NCBI GenBank assembly: GCA_031253545.1
Contig: JAIRWH010000092.1
Span: forward strand, 1-52,165
Origin: Oscillospiraceae bacterium
GTDB lineage: Bacteria; Bacillota; Clostridia; Oscillospirales; UBA929
Direction of reading: 5' to 3'
DNA length: 52,165 nucleotides
Position 1 is the stretch's first letter. Each line of letters opens with the position of its first letter. Under the pieces are notes generated by a model, which saw nothing but the letters and a program-made list of their open reading frames with translations, searched no databases and was not told where the DNA came from. The translations under genes were made by a program, and so were the position numbers. Below are positions 16,402 to 33,433 of the stretch, piece by piece.

Positions 16402-16451
16402 AGCCTCGCCACCTTGCAGCCGTGTCCGGCGGATACGAAAACTTTCACCTT

Positions 16452-16481
16452 AGTGTAACATAGAAACACGCCCGTTCGCAA
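16452..16481 (-). promoter_or_regulatory. promoter of the smpB operon
   Basis: On the minus strand TTGCGA (16481-16476) and TACACT (16457-16452) are 18 bp apart, about 50 nt upstream of the TTG start. A second TTGC lies just upstream, so the exact -35 is uncertain. Confidence 0.5.
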
Positions 16482-16571
16482 GCGCAAAACGCGGTTGTGC
16501 GGATAAAACGGGCAAACGGGTCATACATCGGCAGGCTGTTCTCGCAAAACTCGGTTGTATGGAGAAAACAC

Positions 16572-16600
16572 TTGACAGCGGGAGCAAAGTGACATAGAAT
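16572..16600 (+). promoter_or_regulatory. promoter of the nitrogen superoperon
   Basis: A perfect TTGACA (16572-16577), a 17-bp spacer and TAGAAT (16595-16600) predict a start near 16606-16608. This is the only strong promoter I see for the 16-kb run of genes that follows. Confidence 0.8.
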
Positions 16601-16607
16601 AGTCACG

Positions 16608-16687
16608 AACAAGGACGTTCATCCGTCGGCGTATCCGCCGGCCGCCTTGCGGCTTCGGGCGCGCGTTGTGTGATGAACGCCTTTGTT
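16608..16687 (+). ncRNA. structured 5' leader RNA of the nitrogen superoperon (unclassified)
   Basis: AACAAGGACGTTCATC (16608-16623) can pair with GATGAACGCCTTTGTT (16672-16687): 16 positions with one G-U pair and one A-C mismatch. The enclosed 48 nt contain two smaller hairpins, GGCG/CGCC and the perfect GCCGC-CTT-GCGGC, which would make a three-way junction. The left arm starts at the predicted transcription start. The ribosome site GGTGGAGG follows the right arm within 6 nt. I do not recognise a known riboswitch class. It could be a regulatory element for nitrogen or purine status, or a 5' stabiliser. Confidence 0.55.
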
Positions 16688-16710
16688 TATGAAGGTGGAG
16701 GTTTTGCCTT

Positions 16711-17802
16711 ATGCTACGCGAGGGAGACGCGCGAATACCGTCAGGCTGCGCCATATCGGGCATTTTCAGCAAGGCCGGCAAACGCATGAGCGGCGAGGCC
16801 ATTATCAAGTCCATCGCCGTCATGCACGAACGCTCCAACGGCCTGGGCGGGGGCTTTGCCGCCTACGGCATCTACCCCGCCTACAAAGAGCTTTACGCCC
16901 TGCATATTTTCTACGACAACACGGGCGCCAAGAAGGAATGCGAGGAGTTCTTGGAGCGCCATTTTGATATAGTCAACCTCTCGAAAATACCCACGAGGAA
17001 GGTTAAGGAGGTAACCGACGAGCCGCTTATATGGCGCTATTTCGTTGCGCCCTTGCCCACCAAACTTGCCGAGAGCCAGCTCGACGAGCGCGAGTTTACC
17101 GTGCAGTGCGTGTTTCGCATCAACACGCGAATCACCGGCGCGTATGTCTTTTCCAGCGGCAAGGACATGGGGGTGTTTAAGGCGGTCGGCTACCCCGAAG
17201 ACATCGGCCGTTTTTACCGTTTGGAGGAATACGAGGGCTACTGTTTCACGGCCCACGGCCGCTACCCCACCAACACGCCCGGCTGGTGGGGCGGGGCGCA
17301 CCCGTTTGCCCTGCTCGATTACTCCGTTATCCACAACGGCGAAATCTCCTCCTATGACGCCAACCGCCGCGCCATTGAGATGCACGGCTACAAGTGCTCG
17401 CTCCAGACCGACACGGAGGTTATCACATACATCATAGACTACCTCCACAGGAAGCACGGCCTTACCTATAAGGAAATAGCCTCCGTCATCGCCGCGCCGT
17501 TTTGGCAGACCATCGGGCGCATGGAGCCGGCCGAGCGCGCCGAGCACGAATACCTGCGCATTATGTTCGCCGCGCAGCTCATCACGGGGCCGTTCTCCAT
17601 CATCGTGGGCTTTGCCGGGGGTTTGCTCGCGCTAAACGACAGATTAAAGCTGCGTAGCATGGTGGTGGGCGAAAAGGGCGATATGTGCTATGTGGCGAGC
17701 GAGGAGGCGGCCATCCGCGTCATAGAGCCGGACTTAGACGCCGTGTGGGCGCCGAGCGGCGGCCAGCTCGTCATGTTTCGCCTGCACGGAGGTGACGAGT
17801 AA
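16711..17802 (+). CDS. split glutamate synthase, class II glutamine amidotransferase subunit
   Basis: The 363-residue protein is an Ntn-type glutaminase (GATase_2). The catalytic Cys is at residue 13 (SGCAISGIF), so a 12-residue propeptide must be removed to free it. Further conserved segments are AHGRYPTNTPGWWGGAHPF, HNGEISSYDANRR and QTDTEVITYIIDYL. It should release ammonia from glutamine for the synthase subunit encoded next, whose ATG overlaps this stop (TAATG). ATG 16711 lies 9 nt after GGTGGAGG. It corresponds to the N-terminal domain of large-subunit GltB, here a separate gene as in archaeal-type and GlxB-like systems. Confidence 0.92.
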   Translation: MLREGDARIPSGCAISGIFSKAGKRMSGEAIIKSIAVMHERSNGLGGGFAAYGIYPAYKELYALHIFYDNTGAKKECEEFLERHFDIVNLSKIPTRKVKEVTDEPLIWRYFVAPLPTKLAESQLDEREFTVQCVFRINTRITGAYVFSSGKDMGVFKAVGYPEDIGRFYRLEEYEGYCFTAHGRYPTNTPGWWGGAHPFALLDYSVIHNGEISSYDANRRAIEMHGYKCSLQTDTEVITYIIDYLHRKHGLTYKEIASVIAAPFWQTIGRMEPAERAEHEYLRIMFAAQLITGPFSIIVGFAGGLLALNDRLKLRSMVVGEKGDMCYVASEEAAIRVIEPDLDAVWAPSGGQLVMFRLHGGDE

Positions 17803-19307
17803 TGCCCGTGAACTATATACACCCCGATTACGAGGTCATACGCAACCCCGACAGGTGCGTCGCCTGCCGCGCCTGCGAGCGCCAATGCGCCAACGGCGTG
17901 CATGAGTACCTGCCCGACGCGGGCAAATTGGTGTGCGACGACGCGCTGTGCGTGAACTGCCACCGCTGCGTGACGCTCTGCCCCACCCGCGCGCTCAAAA
18001 TCGTCAGAAGCGGCAACACATACAAGGAAAACGTGAACTGGAGCGGCGAGACCATCAACGAGCTGTATCGCCAGGCGGGCAGCGGCGGTGTGCTGCTCTC
18101 CGGCATGGGCACCCCGAAGCCCTACCCCGTGTATTTTGACAAAATCCTGCTCAACGCCTCGCAGGTTACCAACCCCTCCATAGACCCGCTGCGCGAGCCC
18201 ATGGAAACCAAGGTCTTCCTCGGCGCAAAGCCGCGCACTGTGGCGCGCGGCAAAGACGGGCGGCTGCAAAACAACCTGCCGCCGCAGCTTTCGCTGTCTA
18301 TGCCCGTTATGTTTTCCGCCATGAGTTACGGCTCAATCAGCTACAACGCCCACGAAAGCCTCGCCCGCGCCGCCGAGGCGCTGGGGGTTTTATATAACAC
18401 GGGCGAGGGCGGGCTCCACGAGGATTTCTACCGCTACGGCAAGAACACCATAGTGCAGGTGGCCTCCGGGCGCTTCGGGGTGCACCCGCAGTACCTCAAC
18501 AGCGGCGCGGCCATAGAAATCAAAATGGGTCAGGGCGCGAAGCCGGGCATAGGCGGGCACTTGCCGGGCGCGAAGATTATCGGCGACATCTCCCGTACGC
18601 GCATGATACCCGAAGGCAGCGACGCCATATCCCCCGCGCCGCACCACGACATCTACTCCATAGAGGATTTGCGCCAGCTTGTGTATTCGCTCAAGGAAGC
18701 CACCGATTACCGCAAGCCCGTCATCGTCAAAATCGCCGCCGTGCACAACGTGGCCGCCATCGCCAGCGGCATCGCCCGCAGCGGCGCGGACGTTATCGCC
18801 ATAGACGGCTTTCGCGGCGGCACGGGCGCGGCCCCCACGCGCATACGCGACAACGTGGGCATACCCATCGAGCTTGCGCTCGCGGGGGTGGATAAGCGCC
18901 TGCGCGACGAAGGCATACGCGACAACGTCTCTATTGTGGCGGGCGGGAGCATACGCTCCAGCGCCGACATCATCAAGGCCGCCGCCCTCGGCGCGGACTG
19001 CGTGTATATCGGCACGGCGGCGCTCCTCGCCCTCGGCTGCCACCTCTGCCGCAGCTGCCACGCGGGCAAGTGCAACTGGGGCATCGCCACGCAGATGCCG
19101 GAGCTTGTGAAACGCCTGAACCCCGACATAGGCTATATGCGCCTTGTGAACCTGCTCACGGCGTGGCGGCACGAGATAAAGGAGATGATGGGCGGCATGG
19201 GCATAAACTCCATAGAGGCGCTCAGGGGCAACCGCCTTATGCTGCGGGGCGTGGGGCTGAACGAAAAAGAGCTGGAGATACTGGGAATAAAGCACGCGGG
19301 GGAATGA
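17802..19307 (+). CDS. split glutamate synthase, FMN-binding synthase subunit with ferredoxin domain
   Basis: The 501-residue protein starts with a two-cluster 4Fe-4S ferredoxin domain (CVACRACERQC and CVNCHRCVTLC, residues 20-60). The FMN-dependent glutamate synthase TIM barrel follows: MFSAMSYGSISYNAHESLARAA, GEGGLHEDFYRYG, KMGQGAKPGIGGHLPG and IDGFRGGTGAAPTRIRDNVG. The C-terminal cysteine group CHLCRSCHAGKCNWG supplies the 3Fe-4S cluster next to FMN. It makes glutamate from 2-oxoglutarate and ammonia channelled from the amidotransferase. The fused ferredoxin domain suggests electrons arrive from the Fe-S and FAD proteins encoded at 22722-24380. Confidence 0.95.
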   Translation: MPVNYIHPDYEVIRNPDRCVACRACERQCANGVHEYLPDAGKLVCDDALCVNCHRCVTLCPTRALKIVRSGNTYKENVNWSGETINELYRQAGSGGVLLSGMGTPKPYPVYFDKILLNASQVTNPSIDPLREPMETKVFLGAKPRTVARGKDGRLQNNLPPQLSLSMPVMFSAMSYGSISYNAHESLARAAEALGVLYNTGEGGLHEDFYRYGKNTIVQVASGRFGVHPQYLNSGAAIEIKMGQGAKPGIGGHLPGAKIIGDISRTRMIPEGSDAISPAPHHDIYSIEDLRQLVYSLKEATDYRKPVIVKIAAVHNVAAIASGIARSGADVIAIDGFRGGTGAAPTRIRDNVGIPIELALAGVDKRLRDEGIRDNVSIVAGGSIRSSADIIKAAALGADCVYIGTAALLALGCHLCRSCHAGKCNWGIATQMPELVKRLNPDIGYMRLVNLLTAWRHEIKEMMGGMGINSIEALRGNRLMLRGVGLNEKELEILGIKHAGE

Positions 19308-19311
19308 GCGT

Positions 19312-20013
19312 ATGTGCGAGGTACTGTATGAGGGAAAATCCAAGACCGTTTGCCGCGGCCCCGACGGGGGTAGCCTCATTCTGCGTTACCGCGATTCCGC
19401 CACGGCCTACAACGGCGAGAAGAAGGCTGAACTGGACGGCAAGGGCAAACTCAACGCCGCCATCAGCCATAAACTGTTTGGGTTTCTTGAAGGGCACGGC
19501 ATAAAGACGCATTTGCTCGAAGCGCAAGGCGACACCGCCGCCCTCGTGCGCAAAGCGGATATTGTGATGGTGGAGGTCATTGTCAGGAACGTGGCCGCCG
19601 GCAGCTTCTCCAAGCGTTACGGTGTGCCGGAAGGCTCGGAGCTGAAAAACACCGTGGTGGAGTTCAGCCTCAAAAGCGACGAACTGGGCGACCCGCTCAT
19701 CTGCGAATCCCACATCACGGCGCTGGGGTTGGCCACAAAGGAAGAATTGGACGAAATGACACGCCTTTCGCTGAGAATAAACGACTTGCTGTGCCCCCTT
19801 TTTGCCCGCGCGGGCATTAGGCTCGTTGACTTCAAGTTGGAGTTTGGCAGAGCCGGCGGCGAGCTCATCCTGTGCGACGAGCTCTCGCCCGATTCGTGCA
19901 GGTTTTGGGATATCGCCACCGGCGAAAAACTCGACAAAGACAGGTTTCGCCGCGACTTGGGCGATGTGCTCGCAGGTTACGCCGATGTGCTGCGCAGGCT
20001 CGCCGATGTCTGA
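19312..20013 (+). CDS. purC: phosphoribosylaminoimidazole-succinocarboxamide synthase
   Basis: The 233-residue product matches SAICAR synthetase in length and motifs: LYEGKSKTVCRGPD, NGEKKAELDGKGKLNAAISHKLFGFLE, VEVIVRNVAAGSFSKRYGV and VDFKLEFG...LCDELSPDSCRFWD. It joins aspartate to CAIR in purine synthesis. It starts 4 nt after the glutamate synthase stop and overlaps purB by 8 nt. Its placement between glutamate-synthase subunits is unusual. Confidence 0.97.
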   Translation: MCEVLYEGKSKTVCRGPDGGSLILRYRDSATAYNGEKKAELDGKGKLNAAISHKLFGFLEGHGIKTHLLEAQGDTAALVRKADIVMVEVIVRNVAAGSFSKRYGVPEGSELKNTVVEFSLKSDELGDPLICESHITALGLATKEELDEMTRLSLRINDLLCPLFARAGIRLVDFKLEFGRAGGELILCDELSPDSCRFWDIATGEKLDKDRFRRDLGDVLAGYADVLRRLADV

Positions 20014-21433
20014 CCGCTACGAAAACCCGCTGTGCAGGCGCTACGCAAGCGAGAGGATGCAGCGCCTGTTTTCCGACGACAATAAGTTTTCCACATGGCG
20101 GAAACTCTGGGTGGCGCTCGCCGAAAGCCAAATGGAACTGGGGCTCGGCGTTACGGCGGAGCAAATAGCCCAAATGAAGGCGCGCGTTACCGACATCGAC
20201 TACGGCGCGGCGGCGCGCTATGAGCGCGAAACGCGCCACGATGTGATGGCGCACATCAGGGCGTATGCCGAGCAGTGCCCGCTTGCCGGCCCCATTATCC
20301 ACCTCGGCGCCACAAGCTGCTATGTGACCGACAACACGGACATCATCATCCAGAAAACCGCCTTATCGTATATACGCGAGAAACTCACGGCGACCATTGG
20401 CGCGCTCGCCGCGTTCGCGGAGCGGCACAAAGCGCTGCCGTGCCTCGCGTACACGCATTTTCAGCCCGCCCAGCCCACCACGGCGGGCAAGCGCGCCACG
20501 CTTTGGATGCAAGACCTCTTGCTCGACCTTGAGCATTTAGACTTTTCCGCAAGCCGCCTCAAGCTCCTCGGCTGCAAGGGAGCCACGGGCACGGCGGCCG
20601 GCTTCCTCTCGCTCTTCGGCGGCAACCACGAAAAGGTGGTTTCGCTTGAGCGGAAGATATGCGAAAAGATGGGCTTCCCGGAGGTTTTCCCCGTCACAGG
20701 CCAGACTTACCCCCGCAAATTAGACTTTTTCACCCTCTCCGCGCTCTCCGGCATCGCCCAAAGCGCGTATAAGTTTTCCTCCGATGTCAGGCTTTTGCAG
20801 CACCTGCAGGAAGCGGACGAGCCGCGCGAGCCTTCGCAGGTCGGCTCCTCCGCCATGGCGTATAAGCGCAACCCCATGAGGAGCGAACGCATGGCCTCGC
20901 TCTCGCGCTTTATCATTGTTTCGGCGCAGAACACGGCCCTTACGGCAAGCGAACAATGGTTTGAGCGCACGCTCGACGACTCCGCCAACAGGCGTATTGT
21001 GCTCCCGGAAGCCTTCTTGGCCGCCGACGCCGTGCTCTCGCTCTACATCAACGTTATCGGCGGCCTCACGCCGTATCCCGGCGTTATGCGGAAGCACTTG
21101 CGCGAGGAGCTGCCGTTTCTCGCCGCCGAGAATATACTCATGCAAGGCGTGAAAAAAGGCGGCGACAGACAGGAGCTGCACGAGCGTATTAGGCGCCATT
21201 CCATGGACGCGGCCGAAAACATTAAGCTGCGCGGCAAAGACAACGACCTTTTGGAGCGTATCGCCTCAGACAGGGCCTTCGGATTGGACGCGGACGAATT
21301 GGCGGACATTCTGCGGGCCGAAGACTTCACGGGCAGGGCAAAGGAGCAGACGGAAGAGTTTCTCGCCTCTCTCGGCAACGCGCTCGGCGCTTTCGGGCAA
21401 ATGCGAAGCGAAGACATAAACATTACGGTGTAG
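20006..21433 (+). CDS. purB: adenylosuccinate lyase
   Basis: The 475-residue fumarase-superfamily lyase cleaves SAICAR and adenylosuccinate. Conserved parts are HDVMAHIRAYAEQCP, HLGATSCYVTDNTD, the substrate loop YTHFQPAQPTTAGKRA, and the signature SSAMAYKRNPMRSER with its catalytic serine. It resembles the longer (about 475-residue) eukaryote-like PurB rather than the 430-residue B. subtilis form. ATG 20006 lies inside the end of purC; a longer in-frame reading to 19802 only shadows purC. Confidence 0.96.
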   Translation: MSDRYENPLCRRYASERMQRLFSDDNKFSTWRKLWVALAESQMELGLGVTAEQIAQMKARVTDIDYGAAARYERETRHDVMAHIRAYAEQCPLAGPIIHLGATSCYVTDNTDIIIQKTALSYIREKLTATIGALAAFAERHKALPCLAYTHFQPAQPTTAGKRATLWMQDLLLDLEHLDFSASRLKLLGCKGATGTAAGFLSLFGGNHEKVVSLERKICEKMGFPEVFPVTGQTYPRKLDFFTLSALSGIAQSAYKFSSDVRLLQHLQEADEPREPSQVGSSAMAYKRNPMRSERMASLSRFIIVSAQNTALTASEQWFERTLDDSANRRIVLPEAFLAADAVLSLYINVIGGLTPYPGVMRKHLREELPFLAAENILMQGVKKGGDRQELHERIRRHSMDAAENIKLRGKDNDLLERIASDRAFGLDADELADILRAEDFTGRAKEQTEEFLASLGNALGAFGQMRSEDINITV

Positions 21434-21445
21434 GGGGGCTTCACA

Positions 21446-22717
21446 ATGCTGACGGCAATAGTGGGAGTCAACTGGGGCGACGAAGGCAAAGGGCGCATGG
21501 TGGATTTGCTCTCGGAGCGCTACGGCGTTATCTGCCGCTATCAGGGCGGCAACAACGCCGGGCACACGGTGGTCAACAGCGGCGGCAAGTTTGTGCTCAA
21601 CCTCTTGCCGTCGGGCGTGTTGCGCGAGGGCACCGTCAACGTCATGGGCGCGGGCATGGTCATAGACATCGAGCACCTGTGCGGCGAGATGGACTCGCTT
21701 GCCGCCAAGGGTGTGAAACTCACGCCCGAAAACCTCATCATCAGCCACAGGGCCTTTATATGCCTGCCGTATCACAGAACGCAGGATGTTTTGGAGGAGG
21801 AGCGGCTTGCCGACAAAAAATACGGCTCCACAAGGCGCGGCATAGCCCCCGTGTACGGCGACAAATACATGAAAAAAGGGCTGCGCATGGGCGATTTGCT
21901 CGAGCGCGATACCCTCGCGGAAAAAACGGAGCATTTGCTGGCATGGAAAAACCTCACTTTCAGCGGTTACGGCGCGCGCACGGACAGCGCCGGGGACACC
22001 CTGCGCTGGCTGGAGCGATACGCCGAGCCCATAGCGCCGTATATCGCCGACACCACGGCGTACCTTCGCTCCGCCGCGGCAAGCGGCAAAGATATACTCT
22101 TTGAGGCGCAGCTCGGCTCGCTGCGCGATATTGACTACGGCATATACCCATACACCACTTCCTCGCAAACCTTGGCCTGCTACGCCACGGCGGGCGCGGG
22201 TATTCCGGGCGCAAGGCTCGACAATGTGGTCGGCGTGATGAAGGCCTATTCCAGCTGCGTGGGCGAAGGGCCGTTTACCTCGGAACTGTTTGGCGACGAG
22301 GCTTCCGCCCTGCGGGAAGCGGGCGGCGAATACGGCGCGGCGACGGGCCGCCCCCGCAGGGTCGGCACATTCGACATACCCGCCTCCCGTTTCGGCATCG
22401 CCGTGCAAGGCGCGGACGAACTGGCGCTCACAAAGCTCGATGTGCTCTCGTATCTGCCCAAAATCCCCGTGTGTGTGGCATACGACATAGACGGCCTTCG
22501 CACGGGCGAGTTTCCTTCCGGCGACAAACTCGTGAGGGCAAAGCCCGTAATCGAGTATTTAGACGGCTTCCGGACGGATATTTCGCGTTGCCGCAGCCCC
22601 GGCGAGCTGCCGCCGGCCGCCTCCGAATATGTGCGCTACATAGAAAACGCCGTGGGTTGCCCGATAAAGTATGTGTCCGTGGGCGCGGGGCGCGAGGATT
22701 ACCTTGTGTGGAGGTGA
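21446..22717 (+). CDS. purA: adenylosuccinate synthetase
   Basis: The 423-residue GTPase makes adenylosuccinate from IMP and aspartate. The P-loop-like GVNWGDEGKGRMVDLL lies at the N-terminus, then QGGNNAGHTVV, the STRRGIAPVYGDK loop, FEAQLGSLRDIDYGIYPYTTSS, and GRPRRVGTFDIPASRF in the C-terminal half. It starts 12 nt after purB, preceded by GGGGGG. With purC and purB it completes a block that uses aspartate as nitrogen donor. Confidence 0.97.
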   Translation: MLTAIVGVNWGDEGKGRMVDLLSERYGVICRYQGGNNAGHTVVNSGGKFVLNLLPSGVLREGTVNVMGAGMVIDIEHLCGEMDSLAAKGVKLTPENLIISHRAFICLPYHRTQDVLEEERLADKKYGSTRRGIAPVYGDKYMKKGLRMGDLLERDTLAEKTEHLLAWKNLTFSGYGARTDSAGDTLRWLERYAEPIAPYIADTTAYLRSAAASGKDILFEAQLGSLRDIDYGIYPYTTSSQTLACYATAGAGIPGARLDNVVGVMKAYSSCVGEGPFTSELFGDEASALREAGGEYGAATGRPRRVGTFDIPASRFGIAVQGADELALTKLDVLSYLPKIPVCVAYDIDGLRTGEFPSGDKLVRAKPVIEYLDGFRTDISRCRSPGELPPAASEYVRYIENAVGCPIKYVSVGAGREDYLVWR

Positions 22718-22721
22718 CGGC

Positions 22722-23150
22722 GTGAAAAGGGTATATGTGAACGAAAAATGGTGCCTCGGCTGCCACCTGTGCGAATATTACTGCGCCTTCGCGGCTTCGG
22801 GGGAGAAAGACATGGCGAGGGCGCTCAAAGACATCGCCATCAATCCGCGTATTCGTATTGAGGAGCGCGACGACATCAGCTTCGCCGTGTCTTGCCGCCA
22901 TTGCCGCGAGCCGCTCTGCGTGAAAAGCTGCCTCACGGGCGCGCTCACCGCGCAAGACGGCGTTATCGCCATAGACGGCGAGCGCTGCGTCGGTTGCTAC
23001 ACCTGCATACTCGTCTGCCCATACGGCGCGGTGTCGCCCTCCGAAAACGGCGCTGTGCAAAAATGCGAGCTTTGCGTGAAAAACACCGGCTCGCCCGCCT
23101 GCGTGAAGGGCTGCCCCAACGGCGCGATTGTGTATGAGGAAAGGGGGTAA
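22722..23150 (+). CDS. polyferredoxin-type electron-transfer protein (four 4Fe-4S clusters)
   Basis: The 142-residue protein resembles HycB/HydN-like Fe-S subunits. Four Cys groups are visible: CLGCHLCEYYC, CRHCREPLCVKSC, CVGCYTCILVC and CELCVKNTGSPACVKGC, sixteen cysteines suited to four cubane clusters. It probably carries electrons between the FAD protein encoded 6 nt downstream and the ferredoxin domain of the synthase subunit. GTG 22722 follows GGAGGTGA and lies 4 nt after the purA stop. Confidence 0.9.
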   Translation: MKRVYVNEKWCLGCHLCEYYCAFAASGEKDMARALKDIAINPRIRIEERDDISFAVSCRHCREPLCVKSCLTGALTAQDGVIAIDGERCVGCYTCILVCPYGAVSPSENGAVQKCELCVKNTGSPACVKGCPNGAIVYEERG

Positions 23151-23156
23151 CGCGCG

Positions 23157-24380
23157 GTGAGATACGTTATCATCGGCAACGGCGCGGCCGGGGTCGGCGG
23201 GGCGGAGGGCATACGCTCCCGCGACAAAGACGGCGAGGTTACAATCATCTCCGCCGAGGGCGCCCGCATTTACTCCCGCCCGCTCATCTCCTACCTCGTG
23301 GCGGGGAAGGTCGCCGACTCCGGCATGGATTACAGGCCCGCGGACTTTTATGAGCGCAATAACTGCAAGGTGACGGGTGAGCGGGCCGCGGCCGTGGACG
23401 CGAAAGGGAAGGCCGTGATACTCGAAGGCGGCGCGCGCGTGCCATACGACAAACTGCTCGTGGCCGCCGGTTCCTCGCCGTTTGTGCCGCCGTTTGAGGG
23501 CTTGGACACGGTGAAGGGCAAGTATTCGTTTTCCTCGCTTGCCGACGCCCGCGCCTTGGGAGCCGCCCTCGCGCCGCACAAAAAGGCGCTGATTATCGGC
23601 GCGGGGCTTATCGGGTTGAAGTGCGCGGAGGGCATTTCGGAAAAAGTGGCGAGTATCACCGTAACGGACATAGCGCCGCGCATACTCTCAAGCATACTCG
23701 ACGAGGGCGGCGCGGCCGCGGTGGCGCGCCATATCGAGGGCAAGGGGGTGAGCTTCCGCCTCTCCTCCTCGGTAAAGCGCTTCGAGCCGGGCACGGCCTA
23801 TTTGGAAAGCGGCGAGGCAATCGCCTTTGACTTGCTCGTCACGGCCGTGGGCGTACGCCCAAACACCGCGCTGCTTAAAGGTGTCGCCGACACGGACAGG
23901 GGTATCATAATAAACGCCCGTTCGGAAACCTCCGCGCCCGATATATACGCCGCCGGCGACTGTGCGCAGGCGCTCGACGCGTCGAGCGGCGAGAGCAAGG
24001 TTATGGCGCTGCTGCCAAACGCCTATATGCAGGGCGAATGTGCCGGGGTGAATATGGCGGGGGGCGAAAAGAGCTTTGACAAAGCCGTTCCCATGAACGC
24101 CGTGGGGTTTTTCGGCCTGCATATCATCACCGCGGGCAACTATACCGGCAACGTCCGCGCCGCCGGGGAAGGCGACGGTTACAAGCGCCTGTTTTATTCG
24201 GACAACAGGCTAAACGGATATATTATGGTCGGCGACGTAGGCAAGGCCGGCATATACACAAGCCTGCTCCGCGACGGCACCCCCTTAGACACGCTGGACT
24301 TTGAGCAAATCTGCGAAAAGCCCGGCCTCATGGCGTTTACAAGCAAGGCGCGGCAGGAGAAACTTGGGGAGGCGCGGTAA
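23157..24380 (+). CDS. FAD-dependent NAD(P)H oxidoreductase, probable glutamate synthase electron-input subunit
   Basis: The 407-residue Pyr_redox_2 protein has an N-terminal FAD site (YVIIGNGAAGVGGAEGIR), a central nucleotide site (KALIIGAGLIGLKCAEGI) and the second FAD motif (SAPDIYAAGDCAQ). The C-terminal 80 residues resemble those of NirB-like and rubredoxin-reductase-like enzymes. No redox disulfide motif is present. It probably oxidises NAD(P)H and reduces the neighbouring polyferredoxin. GTG 23157 is preceded by GGGGG, and its stop abuts the next ATG (TAAATG). NADH versus NADPH cannot be decided from sequence reading. Confidence 0.88.
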   Translation: MRYVIIGNGAAGVGGAEGIRSRDKDGEVTIISAEGARIYSRPLISYLVAGKVADSGMDYRPADFYERNNCKVTGERAAAVDAKGKAVILEGGARVPYDKLLVAAGSSPFVPPFEGLDTVKGKYSFSSLADARALGAALAPHKKALIIGAGLIGLKCAEGISEKVASITVTDIAPRILSSILDEGGAAAVARHIEGKGVSFRLSSSVKRFEPGTAYLESGEAIAFDLLVTAVGVRPNTALLKGVADTDRGIIINARSETSAPDIYAAGDCAQALDASSGESKVMALLPNAYMQGECAGVNMAGGEKSFDKAVPMNAVGFFGLHIITAGNYTGNVRAAGEGDGYKRLFYSDNRLNGYIMVGDVGKAGIYTSLLRDGTPLDTLDFEQICEKPGLMAFTSKARQEKLGEAR

Positions 24381-25103
24381 ATGATTACAATCTCCGCGAA
24401 AAACTTAAACCACAAGGCTTTGGGCGAGAAAATCAAAGCGGCCGCCTCCGACGACATCACCGTGCACGACTGCGCCGGGCAAAGATTCATCGCCGGCGGC
24501 CTTCGCTGCAAAACGCTGACGCTCCGGGGCACCCCCGGCAACGCCTTGGGCGCTTACTTCGACGGCGGCGTTATATATGTGGGCGGCAACGCGCAGGATG
24601 CCGTGGGCGACACCATGAACGACGGCAAAATCGTGATAGACGGCAACGCGGGGGACGCCCTCGGCTACGCCATGCGCGGCGGCGGCATCTTCGTGCGCGG
24701 CAACAGCGGTTACAGGACGGGCATACACATGAAAGAGTATGAGGGCAAAAAGCCCTCCATAGTCATAGGCGGGCGCGCCGGCAGCTTCTTGGGCGAATAC
24801 CTTGCCGGAGGGCTTATTGTGGTGCTCGGCATGGGCTGCTCCGATGTGCCCGTGGGCAACTTTACCGGCACGGGTATGCACGGCGGGCGCATTATCATAC
24901 GTTCGCCAAAGCCCCCCGCGAACCTGCCCGCGCAGGTTACCATGCAGGCGGCCGAGCCCGGCGACATAGACGAAATCACGCCTTTGCTGAGCGAGTTCGC
25001 GGGGTACTTCGGCCTCGATTTATCGCAGCTGCTGCGCGGCGAATACTACGCGCTCAAACCAAACACGCAGAACCCCTACGAACAGCTCTACACCGCGAAC
25101 TGA
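24381..25103 (+). CDS. split glutamate synthase, GXGXG (GltB C-terminal) subunit
   Basis: The 240-residue protein is a right-handed beta-helix of GXGXG repeats. Runs such as AYFDGGVIYVGGNAQDAVG, DGKIVIDGNAGDALGYAMRGGG and IFVRGNSGYRTGIHMKEY are the GltB C-terminal structural domain, also found in formylmethanofuran dehydrogenase subunit C. It scaffolds the amidotransferase and synthase domains, here as a separate subunit. With the genes at 16711, 17802, 22722 and 23157 it makes a five-polypeptide glutamate synthase interrupted by purCBA. Confidence 0.93.
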   Translation: MITISAKNLNHKALGEKIKAAASDDITVHDCAGQRFIAGGLRCKTLTLRGTPGNALGAYFDGGVIYVGGNAQDAVGDTMNDGKIVIDGNAGDALGYAMRGGGIFVRGNSGYRTGIHMKEYEGKKPSIVIGGRAGSFLGEYLAGGLIVVLGMGCSDVPVGNFTGTGMHGGRIIIRSPKPPANLPAQVTMQAAEPGDIDEITPLLSEFAGYFGLDLSQLLRGEYYALKPNTQNPYEQLYTAN

Positions 25104-25117
25104 GGGGCCGGAAGGTT

Positions 25118-26539
25118 ATGGCGGCAAACGATAAGCCCCGCGAAGAATGCGCCGTGTTCGGCGTAAACGTCACCGTGCCGGAAGCCGCCGGCATTGCCTA
25201 CAACGGCCTTCTCGCGCTGCAGCACAGGGGGCAGGAGGGCGCGGGCATAGCCGCCGTGTGCAGCAACAGGATTGTCTGCCGCAAGGGCGTGGGCTTGGTG
25301 AGCGAGGTGTTTTCCGGCGAAAGGCTCGGAGAGTTCGCGCATTCCAATGTGGCCGTGGGACACGCGCGCTATTCCACCACGGGCGGCAACACCCCGGAAA
25401 ACGTGGGGCCCTTTGTGACGGAGTACCTTACGGGCAGGATTGTCATAGCCCACAACGGCAATGTGACAAACGCCCTGGAGCTGCGCGAGTGGCTCATGGA
25501 CAAAGGGCTCCGCTTTTACGCCACGAGCGACAGCGAGGTGGTTTCCGCCCTTTGCGCGTATATGATAACCAAAGAGCGCGGTACTGTGCGGGGCATTATC
25601 GCGGCCGCCGGCATGATGCGCGGGGCGTTTTCGCTCGTTGCCGCGAGCGGTAAGAATAAACTCATCGCCGTGCGCGACGGCACCGGTTTCCGCCCGCTCT
25701 GCATCGGGCGCAACGCGAGCGGCTACGCGGTGGCGTCCGAGAGCTGCGCCTTCGACGCCTGCGGTTTCGAGCTTGCGGGGGATGTGCTGCCCGGCGAGGT
25801 TGTGGTAATTGAAAACGGGGAGATAACGCGGCGCGAGGTGGCGCTCGCCGGAAACGAACCCGGGCACGGTTTCTGTATATTCGAGTATGTCTATTTTTCA
25901 CGCCCGGATTCGATAATCAACGGGCTTTCCGTGTATAAGGCCCGCTACAATATGGGCCTCGCCCTGGCGCGGGAATACCCCGTGCGGGCGGACGTGGTGT
26001 GCGGGGTGCCCGATTCCGGCTTGGACGCCGCTTGCGGTTACAGCGCGGAAAGCGGCATACCGCAGGCGGCGGGCTTTGTGAAGAACCGCTATATAGGCAG
26101 GAGTTTCATCTACCCCACGCAGACCGAGCGCGACAGCGCCGTGAGGCTGAAACTCAACCCGCTGCTGGAAAACATCGGCGGCAAGCGCGTTGTGCTTGTG
26201 GATGATTCCATCGTGCGCGGCACAACCATTGAGAAAATCGTGAAGAGCCTGAAAAACGCGGGGGCGGTTGAAGTGCATATGCGGGTTTCCAGCCCCCCGT
26301 TTTACCACCCTTGCCATTACGGCACGGATATAGACAGCGAGGAAAACCTCATCGCCACAAAAATGGGCATTGGCGAAATCGCCCGCGCGATAGGCGCGGA
26401 CAGCTTGGGTTATATCAGCATAGACGGCATGAGGGCGGCCTGCGCGGGCTGCTCGCTGCCGTTTTGCACGGCGTGCTTCACGGGTAACCGCGGGCTCTCG
26501 CGCCCGAGGAAAGAAGTTTTGGAGCAGGAGGCGATATGA
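25118..26539 (+). CDS. purF: amidophosphoribosyltransferase
   Basis: The 473-residue enzyme starts purine synthesis by aminating PRPP with glutamine nitrogen. The Ntn Cys is at residue 11 (EECAVFGV), so an N-terminal propeptide is cleaved as in the B. subtilis type. Other marks are LQHRGQEGAGIA, GHARYSTTGG, HNGNVTNALELR, the PRPP loop VLVDDSIVRGTT, and cysteines for a 4Fe-4S cluster in CAGCSLPFCTACF. It starts 14 nt after the GXGXG subunit and its TGA overlaps the carA ATG. Confidence 0.97.
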   Translation: MAANDKPREECAVFGVNVTVPEAAGIAYNGLLALQHRGQEGAGIAAVCSNRIVCRKGVGLVSEVFSGERLGEFAHSNVAVGHARYSTTGGNTPENVGPFVTEYLTGRIVIAHNGNVTNALELREWLMDKGLRFYATSDSEVVSALCAYMITKERGTVRGIIAAAGMMRGAFSLVAASGKNKLIAVRDGTGFRPLCIGRNASGYAVASESCAFDACGFELAGDVLPGEVVVIENGEITRREVALAGNEPGHGFCIFEYVYFSRPDSIINGLSVYKARYNMGLALAREYPVRADVVCGVPDSGLDAACGYSAESGIPQAAGFVKNRYIGRSFIYPTQTERDSAVRLKLNPLLENIGGKRVVLVDDSIVRGTTIEKIVKSLKNAGAVEVHMRVSSPPFYHPCHYGTDIDSEENLIATKMGIGEIARAIGADSLGYISIDGMRAACAGCSLPFCTACFTGNRGLSRPRKEVLEQEAI

Positions 26540-27594
26540 TGGCGGCTTACCTGACCCTGGCCGGCGGCCGCAGCTTTCGCGGGGAGTATTTCGGCGCCGA
26601 AGGCGAGGTTACCGGGGAGGTGGTGTTTTCCACCGGCATGGTCGGTTATTTGGAAACGCTCACGGACCCCAGCTATTACGGTCAGATATTGCTCCAAACA
26701 TTCCCGCTTATCGGCAATTACGGCGTTATACCCCCCGACTTCGAGAGCGCGGGGGTGGCCGCCGCCGCGTATATCGTCAAACACCCGTGTCAAACGCCCT
26801 CCAACTTCCGCAGCGAGGGCAAACTCTCCGACTTCCTGCGCGAGCGCGGCGTGGTGGGTTTGTGCGGCATAGACACCAGGGCGCTCGCGAAGACCATACG
26901 CAGCGGCGGCGTGATGAACGGCAAAATTACATATTCGCCCCCCACGCCCGCCGACATGGCCGAAATATCGGCTTATTCCGTGCGGCGCGCCGTGGCCGCC
27001 TGCTCCGTGAAACAGCTCGAAAAGCACGGCGCGCCCGGCGCCCGGCGCGTGGCGCTGATGGACTTCGGCACAAAGCGCGGCATTATCGAGGCCCTCGCGA
27101 CCCGCGGCTGTGAGGTGTGGGTTTTCCCGCACGATACGCCCGCCGCCGACATACTGCGCTGCGAGCCGCGCGGCGTTATGCTCGGCAACGGTCCGGGCGA
27201 CCCCGCCGAAGACGCGAACAGCGGCATTGTGGCCGCGCTGCGCGAGCTGCGCGGCGCGGGAATCCCTATATTCGGCATATGCCTCGGCCACCAAATGCTC
27301 GCCTTGGCAAGCGGCTACAAAACCGGAAAGCTCCCGTTTGGCCATCGCGGCACAAACCAGCCCGTGCTCGACACGCGCACAAAACGCGTGTATGTCACAA
27401 GCCAAAACCACGGATACGCCGTGCTCGCCGACGACTGCTCCTTTAAGAACATCAACGACGGCACATGCGAGGGTATGGATTACGGCTTGTCTTTTTCCGT
27501 GCAGTTTCACCCGGAGGCGCGCGGCGGCCCGCTCGACACGGCCTTCCTGTTTGACAGCTTCATCGAAAGGATGGACGCTTATGCCGCTCGATAA
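26536..27594 (+). CDS. carA: carbamoyl-phosphate synthase small (glutaminase) subunit
   Basis: The 352-residue class I amidotransferase feeds ammonia to CarB. The N-terminal half has GEVVFSTGMVGYLETLTDPSYYGQI. The C-terminal half has the nucleophile in FGICLGHQMLALA, and HGYAV and FHPEA with the catalytic His and Glu region. The ATG overlaps the purF stop. The end overlaps the carB start by 14 nt, which would couple synthesis of the two subunits. Confidence 0.97.
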   Translation: MMAAYLTLAGGRSFRGEYFGAEGEVTGEVVFSTGMVGYLETLTDPSYYGQILLQTFPLIGNYGVIPPDFESAGVAAAAYIVKHPCQTPSNFRSEGKLSDFLRERGVVGLCGIDTRALAKTIRSGGVMNGKITYSPPTPADMAEISAYSVRRAVAACSVKQLEKHGAPGARRVALMDFGTKRGIIEALATRGCEVWVFPHDTPAADILRCEPRGVMLGNGPGDPAEDANSGIVAALRELRGAGIPIFGICLGHQMLALASGYKTGKLPFGHRGTNQPVLDTRTKRVYVTSQNHGYAVLADDCSFKNINDGTCEGMDYGLSFSVQFHPEARGGPLDTAFLFDSFIERMDAYAAR

Positions 27595-30500
27595 AAGCAT
27601 AAAAAAGGTCCTGGTCATCGGCTCCGGCCCCATAGTCATCGGCCAGGCGGCGGAGTTTGACTACGCGGGCACTCAGGCCTGCCGCGTGCTGCGTAAGGAC
27701 GGCATAGAGATTGTGCTCGTCAACTCCAACCCCGCCACGATTATGACCGACGGCAATATCGCCGACAGAATCTACATCGAGCCGCTCACGCTCGCCACGG
27801 TGAAACGTATCATTGAAAAAGAAAGCCCGGACAGTATCCTCTCCGGCCTCGGCGGCCAAACGGGGCTGACGCTCTGTATGCAGCTCTCGCGCGCGGGGTT
27901 TTTGCGCGAGCGCGGCGTGAGGCTGCTCGGCTCTTCTCCCGACGCCATAGACAAAGCCGAGGACAGGCAAATCTTCAAGGAAACCATGCGCTCCTGCGGG
28001 CAGCCCGTGGTGCCCTCCGTCATCGCCACGGACGTATCCGCCGCCTTGGCGTTCGCGCAAGCCGAGGGCTACCCCGTGATAGTGCGCCCCGCCTTCACGC
28101 TGGGCGGCAGCGGCGGCGGTATTGCCAAAGACGAGGCAAGGCTGCGCGACATCGCCTCCGGCGGGCTCGCGCTCTCGCCAATCGGCCAGATACTCGTGGA
28201 AAAATCCATCGCCGGGTGGAAGGAGATAGAGTTTGAGGTCATGCGCGACCGCGCGGGCAACGCCGTGGCCATCTGTTCCATGGAAAACCTCGACCCTATG
28301 GGCATACACACGGGCGACAGCATAGTCATCGCCCCCGCCGTGACGCTCGCCGACCGCGAATACCAAATGCTCCGCACGGCGGCGCTGAATATTGTCCATT
28401 CCCTCGGCGTGGAGGGCGGCTGCAATGTGCAGCTCGCGCTGCACCCGCACAGCTTCGAGTATGCCGTCATCGAGGTCAACCCGCGTGTGTCGCGCTCATC
28501 CGCCCTCGCGAGCAAGGCCACGGGCTACCCCATTGCCAAAGTGGCCACAAAGGTGGCTGTCGGCTACACGCTCGACGAAATCGTCAACGCCGTGACCGGC
28601 ACCACCTTCGCCGCGTTTGAGCCGGCGCTGGACTATGTGGCGGTCAAGTTCCCCAAATGGCCGTTTGATAAGTTCGTATACGCCCAAAAGGACTTGGGCA
28701 CACAGATGAAGGCTACCGGCGAGGTTATGGCCATCGCGGACACGTTTGAGGAGGCGCTGCTCAAAGCCGTGCGCGGGGCGGAAATCGGCGTGAGCGACCT
28801 TGCCCTGCCGAGCCTTGCCGCCAAGACGGACGGCGAGATTCGCGCCATGCTCTCCGCCGTGACCGACGACAGGCTCTTTGTGCTGTACGCCGCCATAAAG
28901 CGAGGCTTTGACATAGACGAGATATACGAGGCCACAAAGGTGGACCGCTGGTTCCTGCACGGCATAGCCAACATCGCCCGAGGGGCTTTCGCCCCCGCCG
29001 CGCCCCTCATTTACAAGATGGTGGACACCTGCGGCGGCGAGTTTGAGGCGAAAACGCCGTATTTCTACTCCGTCAGCCGCGGCGAGGAAAACGAAGCCCT
29101 GCCGTTTGCGCAAAAGAGCGCCAAACCGCGCGTGGCGGTGCTCGGCAGCGGCCCCATACGCATAGGCCAGGGCATAGAGTTTGACTACGCCTGTGTGCAT
29201 TGCGTGTGGACGCTGAAAGAGATGGGCTATGAGGTCATCGTCATCAACAATAACCCGGAGACGGTGTCCACCGACTTCGACACGGCGGACAGGCTCTACT
29301 TCGAGCCGCTCTGTGTGGACGACGTGATGGGCGTGATAGAGGTCGAAAGGCCGCAGGGAGTCATAGTGGCCTTCGGCGGCGGCACGGCGATAAAACTCAC
29401 CAAAAAACTGAGCGAGCGCGGCGTGCCCATTATCGGCACCTCCGCCGACAGCATAGACATATGCGAAGACAGGGAGCGCTTCGACGCGCTGCTGGAACGC
29501 CTTGACATAAAGCGCCCGAAGGGCTTCGCCGTCACCACGGAGGCCCAGGCGCTGGAAGCCGCCGAAAAGCTCGGCTACCCCGTGTTAATGCGGCCGTCTT
29601 ATGTGCTCGGCGGGCAGAATATGATTATCTCGTTTTCGCGCGAGGACATACGCGAATATATGGCAATCATCCTGCGCCACAAGCAGGAGAACCCCGTGTT
29701 GATAGACAAATACCTCAGCGGGCCGGAGATAGAGGTGGACGCCATCTGCGACGGCTCGGACGTGCTCATACCCGGTATCATGGAGCACATCGAGCGCACG
29801 GGTATCCACTCCGGCGACAGCATAGCCGTCTACCCCGCCGTCAGCTTAGACGACGAGACCTTGGAGAAGATATGCGCCATTACCGGGCGGCTTTGCAGGG
29901 AACTTCGCGTGAAGGGGCTTGTGAACATACAGTATGTGCTGTACGATAACGACGTTTACGTTATCGAGGTCAACCCCAGGGCTTCGCGCACCGTGCCGTA
30001 TATCAGCAAGGTCACGGGCGTGCCCATGTGCGAGCTTGCCACAAAGGCCGCCTTGGGCCACACCCTCGCCTCGCTCGGCGTATCGCCCGGCATTGCCAAA
30101 ATCCCGCCGTATACGGCGGTGAAGGTGCCCGTGTTTTCCTTCGAGAAGCTCGCCGATGTGGACACCCACCTCGGCCCGGAGATGAAGTCTACCGGCGAGG
30201 TGCTGGGCTTGGGCAAAAACTTGCAGGAAGCGCTTTACAAGGGGCTTGTGGCCGCGGGCTACAAAATGAAAAAGAGCGGCGGGGTGCTCATAACGGTGCG
30301 CGACGGCGACAAGGCCGAAATCGCCGCCGTGGCCGAAAAGCTGCTCAAATGCGGATTTACCCTCCACGCCACGAGCGGCACGGCGCAATTCCTGACGGGC
30401 AAGGGCATAGCGGCCGAGAGTGTGCCCAAAATCCGCGAAAACCCCGCGGACAACACGGCGCGCCTCTTGGAAAGCGGCAAAATCAGCTATATTATCTCCA

Positions 30501-31522
30501 CCTCCGAAAAAGGCAGAGACCCCGCCCACGACGATGTGCAGCTCCGCAGGAAGGCCACGTCGCTGGGCATACCGTGCCTTACCTCCGTGGACACCGCCAA
30601 CGCCTTGGCGGACAGCCTGCTTTCCGACTACACGGAGACCAACACGGAACTTATTGACGTCAGCCGCCTCAGGAGCGAACGCGTGAAACTCCGCTTCACA
30701 AAAATGCACGGCTGCGGCAACGACTATATCTACATCAACTGCTTCGATATGGCGCTCAACTCCCCCGAATCGCTCTCGGTGTTCCTCTCCGACAGGCATA
30801 CGGGCGTGGGCGGCGACGGGGTGGTGCTGATATTGCGCTCGGATGTCGCCGACGCGCGTATGCGTATGTTCAACCGCGACGGCAGCGAGGGCAAGATGTG
30901 CGGCAACGCCATACGCTGCGTGGCCAAGTACCTCCACGACCACGGCATCGTGAAAAAGCGCGGTATGCGTATCGAAACCGCGAGCGGCGTGAAGAACCTC
31001 ACCCTCTCCACAAAAAACAAGCTCGTGTGGGCAGTGAAGGTGGATATGGGCCGCGCGGAGCTTTCGCCGGGAAAAATCCCCGTAAACCTGTCCGGCGAGA
31101 GCGTGGTGGCGCGGGAGGTCGGCATCGGCGGCAAGGCATACGCCATCACGTGCGTGTCCATGGGCAACCCCCACGCCGTGGTCTTCTGCTCCGGGGTGGA
31201 TAAACTCGACATCGCCGCCATAGGCCCGCTGTTTGAGAACAACCCCCTCTTCCCCGACAGGATAAACACGGAGTTTGTGGAGCTGATTGACAAAACCCAC
31301 ATAAAGATGCGCGTGTGGGAACGCGGCAGCGGCGAGACACAGGCCTGCGGCACGGGCGCTTGCGCCGCCGTTGTGGCGGCCACCCTCAACGGCCATTGCG
31401 ACAAGGGCGCGGACGTGAAGGTGCGGCTGCTCGGCGGCGAGCTGATTATTAACTATACCGACGAGGCCGTGTTTATGACGGGCGACTGCGTGGCGGTGTA
31501 TGACGGGACGGTGGAGATATGA
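27581..31522 (+). CDS. carB-dapF: carbamoyl-phosphate synthase large subunit fused in frame to diaminopimelate epimerase
   Basis: One uninterrupted frame of 1313 codons. Residues 1-1034 are a complete CarB. The first ATP-grasp half begins VLVIGSGPIVIGQAAEFDYAG and the second VAVLGSGPIRIGQGIEFDYA near residue 520. A C-terminal MGS-like regulatory domain follows (GVLITVRDGDKAEIAAVAEKL...TSEKGRDP). Residues 1035-1313 are a complete DapF beginning VKLRFTKMHGCGNDY, with both active-site cysteines (GKMCGNAIRC and TQACGTGACA). No stop codon separates them. CarB makes carbamoyl phosphate for pyrimidines and arginine; DapF makes meso-diaminopimelate for lysine and peptidoglycan. The ATG 27581 overlaps carA, and the TGA overlaps guaA. 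An internal ribosome site may also yield free DapF. Confidence 0.93.
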   Translation: MPLDKSIKKVLVIGSGPIVIGQAAEFDYAGTQACRVLRKDGIEIVLVNSNPATIMTDGNIADRIYIEPLTLATVKRIIEKESPDSILSGLGGQTGLTLCMQLSRAGFLRERGVRLLGSSPDAIDKAEDRQIFKETMRSCGQPVVPSVIATDVSAALAFAQAEGYPVIVRPAFTLGGSGGGIAKDEARLRDIASGGLALSPIGQILVEKSIAGWKEIEFEVMRDRAGNAVAICSMENLDPMGIHTGDSIVIAPAVTLADREYQMLRTAALNIVHSLGVEGGCNVQLALHPHSFEYAVIEVNPRVSRSSALASKATGYPIAKVATKVAVGYTLDEIVNAVTGTTFAAFEPALDYVAVKFPKWPFDKFVYAQKDLGTQMKATGEVMAIADTFEEALLKAVRGAEIGVSDLALPSLAAKTDGEIRAMLSAVTDDRLFVLYAAIKRGFDIDEIYEATKVDRWFLHGIANIARGAFAPAAPLIYKMVDTCGGEFEAKTPYFYSVSRGEENEALPFAQKSAKPRVAVLGSGPIRIGQGIEFDYACVHCVWTLKEMGYEVIVINNNPETVSTDFDTADRLYFEPLCVDDVMGVIEVERPQGVIVAFGGGTAIKLTKKLSERGVPIIGTSADSIDICEDRERFDALLERLDIKRPKGFAVTTEAQALEAAEKLGYPVLMRPSYVLGGQNMIISFSREDIREYMAIILRHKQENPVLIDKYLSGPEIEVDAICDGSDVLIPGIMEHIERTGIHSGDSIAVYPAVSLDDETLEKICAITGRLCRELRVKGLVNIQYVLYDNDVYVIEVNPRASRTVPYISKVTGVPMCELATKAALGHTLASLGVSPGIAKIPPYTAVKVPVFSFEKLADVDTHLGPEMKSTGEVLGLGKNLQEALYKGLVAAGYKMKKSGGVLITVRDGDKAEIAAVAEKLLKCGFTLHATSGTAQFLTGKGIAAESVPKIRENPADNTARLLESGKISYIISTSEKGRDPAHDDVQLRRKATSLGIPCLTSVDTANALADSLLSDYTETNTELIDVSRLRSERVKLRFTKMHGCGNDYIYINCFDMALNSPESLSVFLSDRHTGVGGDGVVLILRSDVADARMRMFNRDGSEGKMCGNAIRCVAKYLHDHGIVKKRGMRIETASGVKNLTLSTKNKLVWAVKVDMGRAELSPGKIPVNLSGESVVAREVGIGGKAYAITCVSMGNPHAVVFCSGVDKLDIAAIGPLFENNPLFPDRINTEFVELIDKTHIKMRVWERGSGETQACGTGACAAVVAATLNGHCDKGADVKVRLLGGELIINYTDEAVFMTGDCVAVYDGTVEI
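30671..30685 (+). promoter_or_regulatory. internal ribosome-binding site and GTG start for free DapF
   Basis: AGGAG (30671-30675), a 7-nt spacer and GTG (30683-30685) lie inside the carB-dapF frame, exactly where unfused DapF proteins begin. This looks like the ancestral dapF start kept after loss of the carB stop codon. Confidence 0.6.
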
Positions 31523-33033
31523 ACGAGCTTGTGTTGGTGCTCGACTTCGGCGGCCAATATAAAGAGCTTATCGCCCGCGCGGTCAGAAATTGCGGCGTGT
31601 ACTCGGCCATCGAGCCCGGCAGTATCTCCGCCGGGGAGATAAAGGCGCGCAACCCCATCGGCATAATAATGACGGGCGGGCCGGACAGCGTGTATCTGCC
31701 GCTCTCGCCCCGGTGCGACGGCGATGTGTGGAGCTTAGGCATACCCGTGCTCGGCATATGCTACGGCATGCAGATGATGTGCCATATGCTCGGCGGCGAG
31801 ATTACCCCCGGCGCCGCCGGCGAATACGGGCGTGTTGTGGTCAGCCCCTCCGCCCCTTCGGCGCTGCTCGGCGCCGACGCGCCGTTTCCCGCCCTCATGA
31901 GCCACGGCGACATCGTATCGCGCCTGCCGGAAGGCTTTGCCGCCACATCCTCCACGCCTTGCTGCCCCGCGGCCTCCTGCGAACACGCGGGGCGGAGGCT
32001 GTACGGCACACAGTTTCACCCCGAATCGGCGCACACGCAAAGCAAGGTTATCCGCAACTTCCTCTTCGATATATGCGGCGCGCGGGGGGACTATAAGTTA
32101 GACGACTATATCGCCACCGCCACGGAGCGTATCCGGCAAAAAGCGGGCGAAGAGCGGGTGCTGCTCGCCTTGTCCGGCGGGGTGGATTCCTCCGTGTGCG
32201 CCGCGCTGCTGGCAAAGGCGCTGCCCGGGCGGCTTACCTGCATATTCGTGGACCACGGCTTCATGCGGCAAGGCGAGGGCGACGAGATAGAGCGCGCGTT
32301 CGCCTCGCGCAAACTGCGCTTTATCCGCGTCAACGCGGCGGACAGGTTCTTGGATAGGCTCAAAGGCGTGACCGACCCGGAGGATAAGCGCAAACGTATC
32401 GGCGAGGAGTTTATCAAGGTATTCGAGGAGCAAGCCGCCGCGCTCGGCAATATACCCGTGTTCGCCCAGGGCACCATATACCCGGATATCGTGGAGTCCG
32501 GCGGCAAATACGGCGCCACCATCAAAAGCCACCACAATGTGGGCGGGCTTCCCGAAAGGCTGAACTTCAAGGAAATCATCGAGCCGCTTTCCGGCCTTTT
32601 CAAAGACGAGGTGCGCCGACTGGGCAAAAAACTCGGCCTGCCCGCCTCGCTGTATGCCAGGCAGCCGTTTCCCGGGCCGGGGCTTGCCATACGCGTAATG
32701 GGCGAGGTCACGCGCGATAAACTTGATGTGCTGCGCCGCGCCGACGCTATAATGCGTGAGGAAATTGACAAATCGGGCAAAAAACCCCACCAGTATTTCG
32801 CCGTGCTCACCGACACGCGCTCGGTGGGCGTGAAGGGCGACGGCAGGACATACGACCGCGTGGTGGCGCTGCGCGCCGTGACCACCAACGACTTCATGAC
32901 GTGCGAATACGCGCCGCTGCCGCACAAGACGCTGCGCGCCATATCCTCGCGCATTACAAGCGAGCTGCCGTCGGTGAGCCGCGTGGTATACGATATAACC
33001 TCAAAACCCCCCTCCACGGTGGAGTGGGAGTAG
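31519..33033 (+). CDS. guaA: GMP synthase (glutamine-hydrolysing)
   Basis: The 504-residue enzyme converts XMP to GMP. The N-terminal class I amidotransferase has Cys in LGICYGMQMMCHMLGG and the FHPESAHT motif. The ATP-pyrophosphatase domain has the PP-loop LLALSGGVDSSVCAALL. The C-terminal dimer domain has RQPFPGPGLAIRVMGEVT and ends IDITSKPP-like (YDITSKPPSTVEWE). The ATG overlaps the carB-dapF stop. It is the last gene of the superoperon and the fourth glutamine amidotransferase in it. Confidence 0.97.
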   Translation: MNELVLVLDFGGQYKELIARAVRNCGVYSAIEPGSISAGEIKARNPIGIIMTGGPDSVYLPLSPRCDGDVWSLGIPVLGICYGMQMMCHMLGGEITPGAAGEYGRVVVSPSAPSALLGADAPFPALMSHGDIVSRLPEGFAATSSTPCCPAASCEHAGRRLYGTQFHPESAHTQSKVIRNFLFDICGARGDYKLDDYIATATERIRQKAGEERVLLALSGGVDSSVCAALLAKALPGRLTCIFVDHGFMRQGEGDEIERAFASRKLRFIRVNAADRFLDRLKGVTDPEDKRKRIGEEFIKVFEEQAAALGNIPVFAQGTIYPDIVESGGKYGATIKSHHNVGGLPERLNFKEIIEPLSGLFKDEVRRLGKKLGLPASLYARQPFPGPGLAIRVMGEVTRDKLDVLRRADAIMREEIDKSGKKPHQYFAVLTDTRSVGVKGDGRTYDRVVALRAVTTNDFMTCEYAPLPHKTLRAISSRITSELPSVSRVVYDITSKPPSTVEWE

Positions 33034-33314: not shown

Positions 33315-33367
33315 TGAAAAACGGCTTCTATTTGCGACCGATATTACGTTTTGAGGAGTGGATTGTA

Positions 33368-33433
33368 ATGGAAGGACCCCGCCACACACACACACACACA
33401 CACACACACACCGCGACGGCGGTGATGTCATGA
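33368..33433 (+). CDS. short upstream ORF running through the (CA)14 tract
   Basis: ATG 33368 has an excellent ribosome site (GAGGAG 33353-33358, 9-nt spacer). The frame encodes 21 residues: MEGPR, then alternating His-Thr from the CA repeat, then a short tail. Its TGA (33431-33433) overlaps the lipoprotein ATG (33430-33432) as ATGA, the same coupling used elsewhere in the window. It may serve mainly to deliver ribosomes to the lipoprotein start. Its reading frame relative to the lipoprotein depends on the number of CA units. Confidence 0.45.
   Translation: MEGPRHTHTHTHTHTATAVMS
33383..33410 (+). repeat. (CA)14 dinucleotide microsatellite
   Basis: Fourteen perfect CA units lie between a strong ribosome site and the lipoprotein start codon. 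Tracts of this length are rare in bacteria and prone to slippage. Confidence 0.97.

Follow-up and report, generated by a model that had tools for sequence, protein, structure and literature searches.

Leader RNAs controlled by ANTAR proteins are the closest described systems. In the dual-hexaloop leaders of EutV/EutW (Ramesh 2012 PMC3369931; Walshe 2022 PMC8934654), a second hairpin, P2, presents a hexaloop with A at position 1 and G at position 4 (A1/G4), has the AC...GU closing pairs needed by EutV, and overlaps the 5' arm of an intrinsic terminator (PMC3369931). EutV also requires the first hairpin, P1, in vivo (PMC3369931). The EutV dimer engages a single hexaloop at a time. Walshe 2022 (PMC8934654) reduced the definition of the minimal ANTAR site to one hexaloop and proposed P1 as a recruitment hairpin needed during transcription, leaving the use of single-hexaloop sites open and calling for a search for them. 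Two-stem ANTAR RNAs also precede genes for glutamate synthase, ammonium transporter and glutamine synthetase in Desulfotomaculum and others (PMC3369931); the search model behind them had two hairpins and would pass over leaders with a single hexaloop. In Clostridium saccharobutylicum, the ANTAR-family regulator NitR is described as inducing GS/GOGAT genes by antitermination on nitrogen limitation (PMC6316151, citing Stutz et al. 2007); the account also gives antisense RNA a part in that system, and NitR control of GS-GOGAT is mentioned again in PMC4676874. AmiR, which acts on the amiE leader, and NasT-type proteins are pseudo-receiver-like ANTAR proteins under the control of a partner protein.

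The window, the whole 52,165-nt stretch of Oscillospiraceae DNA analysed here, contains a superoperon whose 85-nt leader most likely belongs to a NitR/ANTAR nitrogen regulon, because its hairpin loop carries A1 and G4, a relative has a dual-hexaloop leader at the same place, and an ANTAR gene is present in 28 of the 29 genomes with the gene for the glutamate synthase glutaminase (GATase) subunit, against 8 of the 28 without it (p = 4.5e-8). Behind the GATase gene, the superoperon encodes glutamate synthase alpha2, purC, purB, purA, a ferredoxin, an oxidoreductase, a GXGXG subunit, purF, carA, carB, dapF and guaA, the Glu_synthase and GXGXG assignments coming from Pfam and the other names from reading the translations. 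The features of the locus are summarized in Table 1.

Table 1. Features of the leader and superoperon, in window positions
Feature	Position	Strand	Basis or remark
-35 hexamer TTGACA	16572..16577	+	Sole promoter-like site in 16300-17000, 11/12 matches; position homologous in relatives
-10 hexamer TAGAAT	16595..16600	+	17-nt spacer from -35; start predicted at about 16605-16608
Candidate antiterminator hairpin, P2-like ANTAR target	16607..16620	+	Stem GAAC 16607-16610 / GUUC 16617-16620, loop AAGGAC 16611-16616
Terminator-like helix, 5' arm	16608..16623	+	Overlaps antiterminator hairpin; compensatory changes
Variable apical part of terminator	16624..16671	+	Transient GC hairpins at about 16625-16642 and 16641-16653
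Terminator-like helix, 3' arm	16672..16687	+	Fold and compensatory changes
U-rich terminator end UUUGUUU	16682..16688	+	Weaker than in many relatives
Ribosome-binding sequence AAGGTGGAGG	16692..16701	+	9 nt before ATG at 16711
GATase subunit gene, first of superoperon	16711..17802	+	Pfam GATase_2/6/7
Rest of tightly packed superoperon	17802..33033	+	One-strand ORFs, overlaps or short gaps

The leader offers two mutually exclusive helices. A small hairpin at the predicted 5' end has a six-base loop with A1 and G4, as ANTAR targets do, and its closing pairs match the AC...GU pairs of EutV targets. The loop and 3' arm of this hairpin double as the 5' arm of the terminator-like helix, reproducing the overlap of hairpin and intrinsic terminator seen in ANTAR leaders, here with a weak U-tract. 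The leader folds to -43.9 kcal/mol, compared with -29.8 +/- 3.2 in shuffles (z -4.36, 0/200 shuffles), and both the minimum-energy and the centroid structures are a single long arm. Folding of the growing transcript, a prediction for free RNA, has GAAC[AAGGAC]GUUC form first (-3.3 kcal/mol at 16 nt), the GC hairpins join at transcript lengths of 40-50 nt, and the long helix prevail after about 70 nt. A perfect 5-bp inverted repeat, GTGAC-ATAGAATA-GTCAC, lies across the -10 box (16589-16606); it was not noticed in other leaders and is possibly an operator or chance.

Part of the sequence-only reading of the leader holds. It had described a 16-position stem with one G-U pair and one A-C mismatch that opens the predicted transcript and ends close to the ribosome site, and the pairing of the two arms, the position of the promoter and the short distance to the ribosome-binding sequence all agree. 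The stem had also been thought to close a three-way junction, which was rejected since the best fold is one arm; the two GC hairpins placed on that junction occur as folding intermediates, beside a 5' hairpin that had been missed, and are gone from the final fold. The A-C mismatch, formerly read as a mark of selection, is simply hexaloop position 5 (A in the window, G in most relatives) opposite an unchanged C. The label "unclassified" was right insofar as strict and permissive Rfam searches gave no family above the gathering threshold at the window leader or the tested leaders of relatives, but the kind of element is already known.

Following the GATase gene in 57 genomes and 80 named loci revealed the same arrangement upstream of it in 71 distinct leaders: a -10 box, GAAC-AANGGC-GUUC, a variable spacer, a complementary arm and a U-tract. 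The first base of the hairpin lies 5-17 nt from the -10 box (mode 7), and the apical part ranges from about 2 to 66 nt with neither length nor sequence kept. This layout is present in termite-gut Oscillospiraceae MAGs, Herbinix, Defluviitalea and Thermoclostridium; a Thermoclostridium locus (L205) and locus L215 have U-tracts like that of the window, and Dielma has a similar leader below the cut-off of the strict scan. That scan found the element at 54 of 77 named loci, which include contigs labelled Treponema and other phyla that are possibly misbinned, and about a third of distant orthologues are without it. A covariance model of the element, R1, also catches ordinary bidirectional terminators and gives the window leader only a low score (18.7 bits, E 0.9); each match therefore had to pass a filter for promoter and hairpin. 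A clostridial-type GATase gene is also present on contigs with the labels Treponema, Fibrimonadales or archaea (L171, L175, L177, L178, L185, L188 and others), several with the same leader, which may reflect transfer or misbinning in termite-gut MAGs.

Compensatory change between the two arms had been named as the check on the 16-position stem, and the terminator helix does covary across relatives. The 41 elements compared here, drawn from several gene classes, were picked by a scan that demands pairing, which inflates the pair counts of both helices. For the hexaloop hairpin, both sides have changed in 58 cells compared with 27.7 in shuffles (covariation 0.548 versus at most 0.162 when slid); for the terminator helix, the count is 92 compared with 25.7 (covariation 0.621 versus at most 0.180). 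A search for promoter and loop with no pairing rule gave 22 paired cases of 28, five of the six failures being register errors in AAAGGCAAAGGC-like repeats. Among the GATase leaders alone (set A2), the terminator helix covaries (34 cells versus 8.8), while the inner hairpin pairs are nearly invariant and give no covariation signal. Across gene classes, stems vary from GAAC/GUUC to AGGC/GUCU and CAGC/GCUG around the constant loop AANGGC, and A1/G4 occurs in 53 of 55 terminator-overlapping hairpins that were found with no loop rule. The invariant GAAC arm of the GATase leaders lies outside the terminator helix, so the alternative hairpin, or recognition, best accounts for its conservation.

Despite their likeness to EutV/EutW targets, these leaders differ from them in lacking P1. 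No first hairpin (stem of at least 4 bp, G-C closing pair) was found in any of the 71 GATase leaders within 45 nt upstream and the spacer, and a relaxed search (at least 3 bp) gave 6 cases versus 6.6 in shuffles. The idea of a P1 hidden upstream or in the apical loop was rejected, as these counts are not above chance. A single hairpin at the predicted 5' end of the transcript leaves no room for P1. The absence of P1 is what seems new about these leaders. The only dual-hexaloop leader among the GATase orthologues is that of a relative (L183, about 7850-7990), where GUGAAC[AAAGAU]GUUCAU-CCAGAA-GUUGAAC[AAAGGC]GUUCAUC follows directly after the -10 box, a canonical ANTAR target at the same place.

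The genes that carry the element make up a putative nitrogen regulon. It lies upstream of type III glutamine synthetase (GSIII), amtB, asnA, an asparagine-synthase-like gene and classical gltB, as well as purB, dapF, gatC, an argD-like aminotransferase gene and CP-ATP-grasp genes; purB and gatC were named from translations, and the purB fragment has no Pfam match at the cut-off used. GSIII and amtB are often preceded by two complete tandem attenuators, each with its own hexaloop and terminator (L019, L021, L023 and L025 for GSIII; L079, L096, L131, L144 and L165 for amtB). Since purB and dapF, both members of the window superoperon, have elements of their own in other genomes, the superoperon is supported as a coherent target. 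A second canonical element in this genome (L064, G000:C96:50539-50578, - strand) consists of TTGACA-17-TATAAT, GAGC[AAAGGC]GCUU and a terminator, and it precedes a run of CP-ATP-grasp, alpha-E-like, transglutaminase-like and desuccinylase-like genes. It alone was singled out as canonical among the 100 matches that a loose pattern of -10 box plus loop gave in this genome, compared with 60 in the control, the others being judged by eye. In two related genomes (L072 and L129), the element stands before the gene for a protein with the sequence MAAFERVKSGIPEMDAALDNIRLGDNVVW....

The candidate regulator is the one ANTAR protein of this genome (G000:C45:31450-31611, Pfam PF03861, 52.3 bits versus a cut-off of 27.3), which can be aligned along most of its sequence to EutV, AmiR and 1s8n, a putative antiterminator. 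Its gene lies 13 bp after glnA in a glmS-glnA-ANTAR-hisH-hisF run; no leader was seen in the glmS-glnA gap or the upstream region of glmS. The linkage recurs among relatives, with glnA (GSI) at most 1.4 kb upstream of 24 of 30 ANTAR genes and the ANTAR gene on the same contig as the GATase gene, 4-11 kb away, in 18 of the 28 genomes that have both. This tie of an ANTAR gene to glnA and GOGAT genes is that of a NitR-type regulon. The canonical element occurs in 29 of 36 ANTAR genomes versus 3 of 21 others (p = 1e-6), an own tally from a partial sample of fetched loci that is indicative only. Two largely complete genomes have canonical elements, before purB (G021:C40:10495-10571) and before asnA (G032:C12:73802-73846), and no ANTAR gene was detected in either.

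Unlike EutV/EutW, this ANTAR protein and most of its relatives have a receiver without the phospho-acceptor aspartate. Asn replaces Asp in the protein of this genome and in 24 of the 30 ANTAR proteins, so the signal is probably not phosphorylation; the Response_reg match of the protein is also below the Pfam cut-off. Control by a partner protein, as AmiC controls AmiR, is plausible by analogy. Adjacency to glnA suggests glutamine synthetase as a candidate for that partner. At the position of Tyr164, the EutV residue that stacks on G4, most of these proteins have His, as does AmiR.

Together these features argue for a model, in our judgement very probably correct, in which the leader is a NitR/ANTAR-type transcription attenuator that terminates when nitrogen is plentiful and lets the superoperon be read when it is short. 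RNA polymerase would start at about 16607 and immediately produce the small hairpin. With plentiful nitrogen, the hairpin would be unprotected and the 3' arm would pair with its loop and 3' strand, forming the terminator-like helix with its U-rich end, so that transcription would stop ahead of the superoperon. Under nitrogen shortage, the ANTAR protein whose gene directly follows glnA would bind the hexaloop and hold the hairpin; with the terminator unable to form, the genes that make glutamate, purines, carbamoyl phosphate and diaminopimelate would be read. The direction of the signal is taken by analogy from what the cited accounts say of NitR. More speculatively, contact with glutamine synthetase, and not phosphorylation, would control the degenerate receiver. 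Counting against this mechanism are the missing P1, the invariant inner pairs of the GATase leaders, the interrupted U-tract, the two element-bearing genomes without a detected ANTAR gene, the absence of the element from part of the distant orthologues and His in place of Tyr164.

The window U-tract is interrupted and the hairpin stem has only 4 bp, so termination may be weak here. The end of the long stem, 4-5 nt before the ribosome-binding sequence, would also suit an ANTAR target that acts in this genome on translation or mRNA stability, and in actinobacteria some ANTAR RNAs can work at the ribosome site (PMC8164766). This is unlikely, however, as the ribosome-binding sequence takes no part in the pairing of the stem and close as well as distant relatives retain terminator-like U-tracts at the same place. 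Less probable still is a structured 5' end that merely stabilises the mRNA, one of the roles suggested earlier, or a plain constitutive attenuator without a regulator: the helix is very stable and lies at the predicted 5' end, and the weak U-tract could mean that termination has been largely lost in this lineage, but the conserved A1/G4 loop, the invariant GAAC arm, the second helix and the fact that the element keeps to nitrogen genes, in genomes most of which have ANTAR, would all be left unexplained. A riboswitch that senses glutamine, PRPP or a purine by direct binding and controls the terminator with no protein involved, also among the earlier suggestions, would fit a conditional terminator before glutamine, purine and pyrimidine genes, but it is very improbable given the lack of an Rfam match, strong conservation beyond complementarity only in a hairpin of 14 nt, less than a typical aptamer needs, an apical part free in length and sequence, a loop that fits ANTAR targets and a dual-hexaloop homologue. 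The remaining earlier suggestion, a protein-binding antiterminator of the ANTAR kind, is strongly supported by the A1/G4 hexaloop over a terminator, the nitrogen regulon, the linked ANTAR gene and the dual-hexaloop relative.

If the leader is such an ANTAR attenuator, the roughly 70 leaders that naturally lack P1, and the one close relative that has it, turn the need for P1 into a question that can be addressed by swaps. The signature, absent from Rfam, makes the nitrogen regulon of gut and thermophilic Clostridia searchable, and the element links nitrogen control to the synthesis of purines, carbamoyl phosphate and diaminopimelate within one superoperon. A bolder proposal, which we hold only tentatively, is that these leaders represent a large natural class of 5'-terminal single-hexaloop ANTAR attenuators of clostridial nitrogen transcripts, in which the 5' position or a tandem attenuator would replace P1 and a glnA-linked ANTAR protein with a dead receiver would sense nitrogen through glutamine synthetase.

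Other elements were seen near these genes. A glmS ribozyme lies about 2 kb upstream of the GATase gene in Dielma fastidiosa (L246, 5896-6041). Just after the superoperon, window positions 33358-36114 encode a long repetitive protein of secreted type with NYSDGGKLYTMNRDGSG-like repeats, and a similar repetitive protein is encoded near glmS (L033, 9354-11201).
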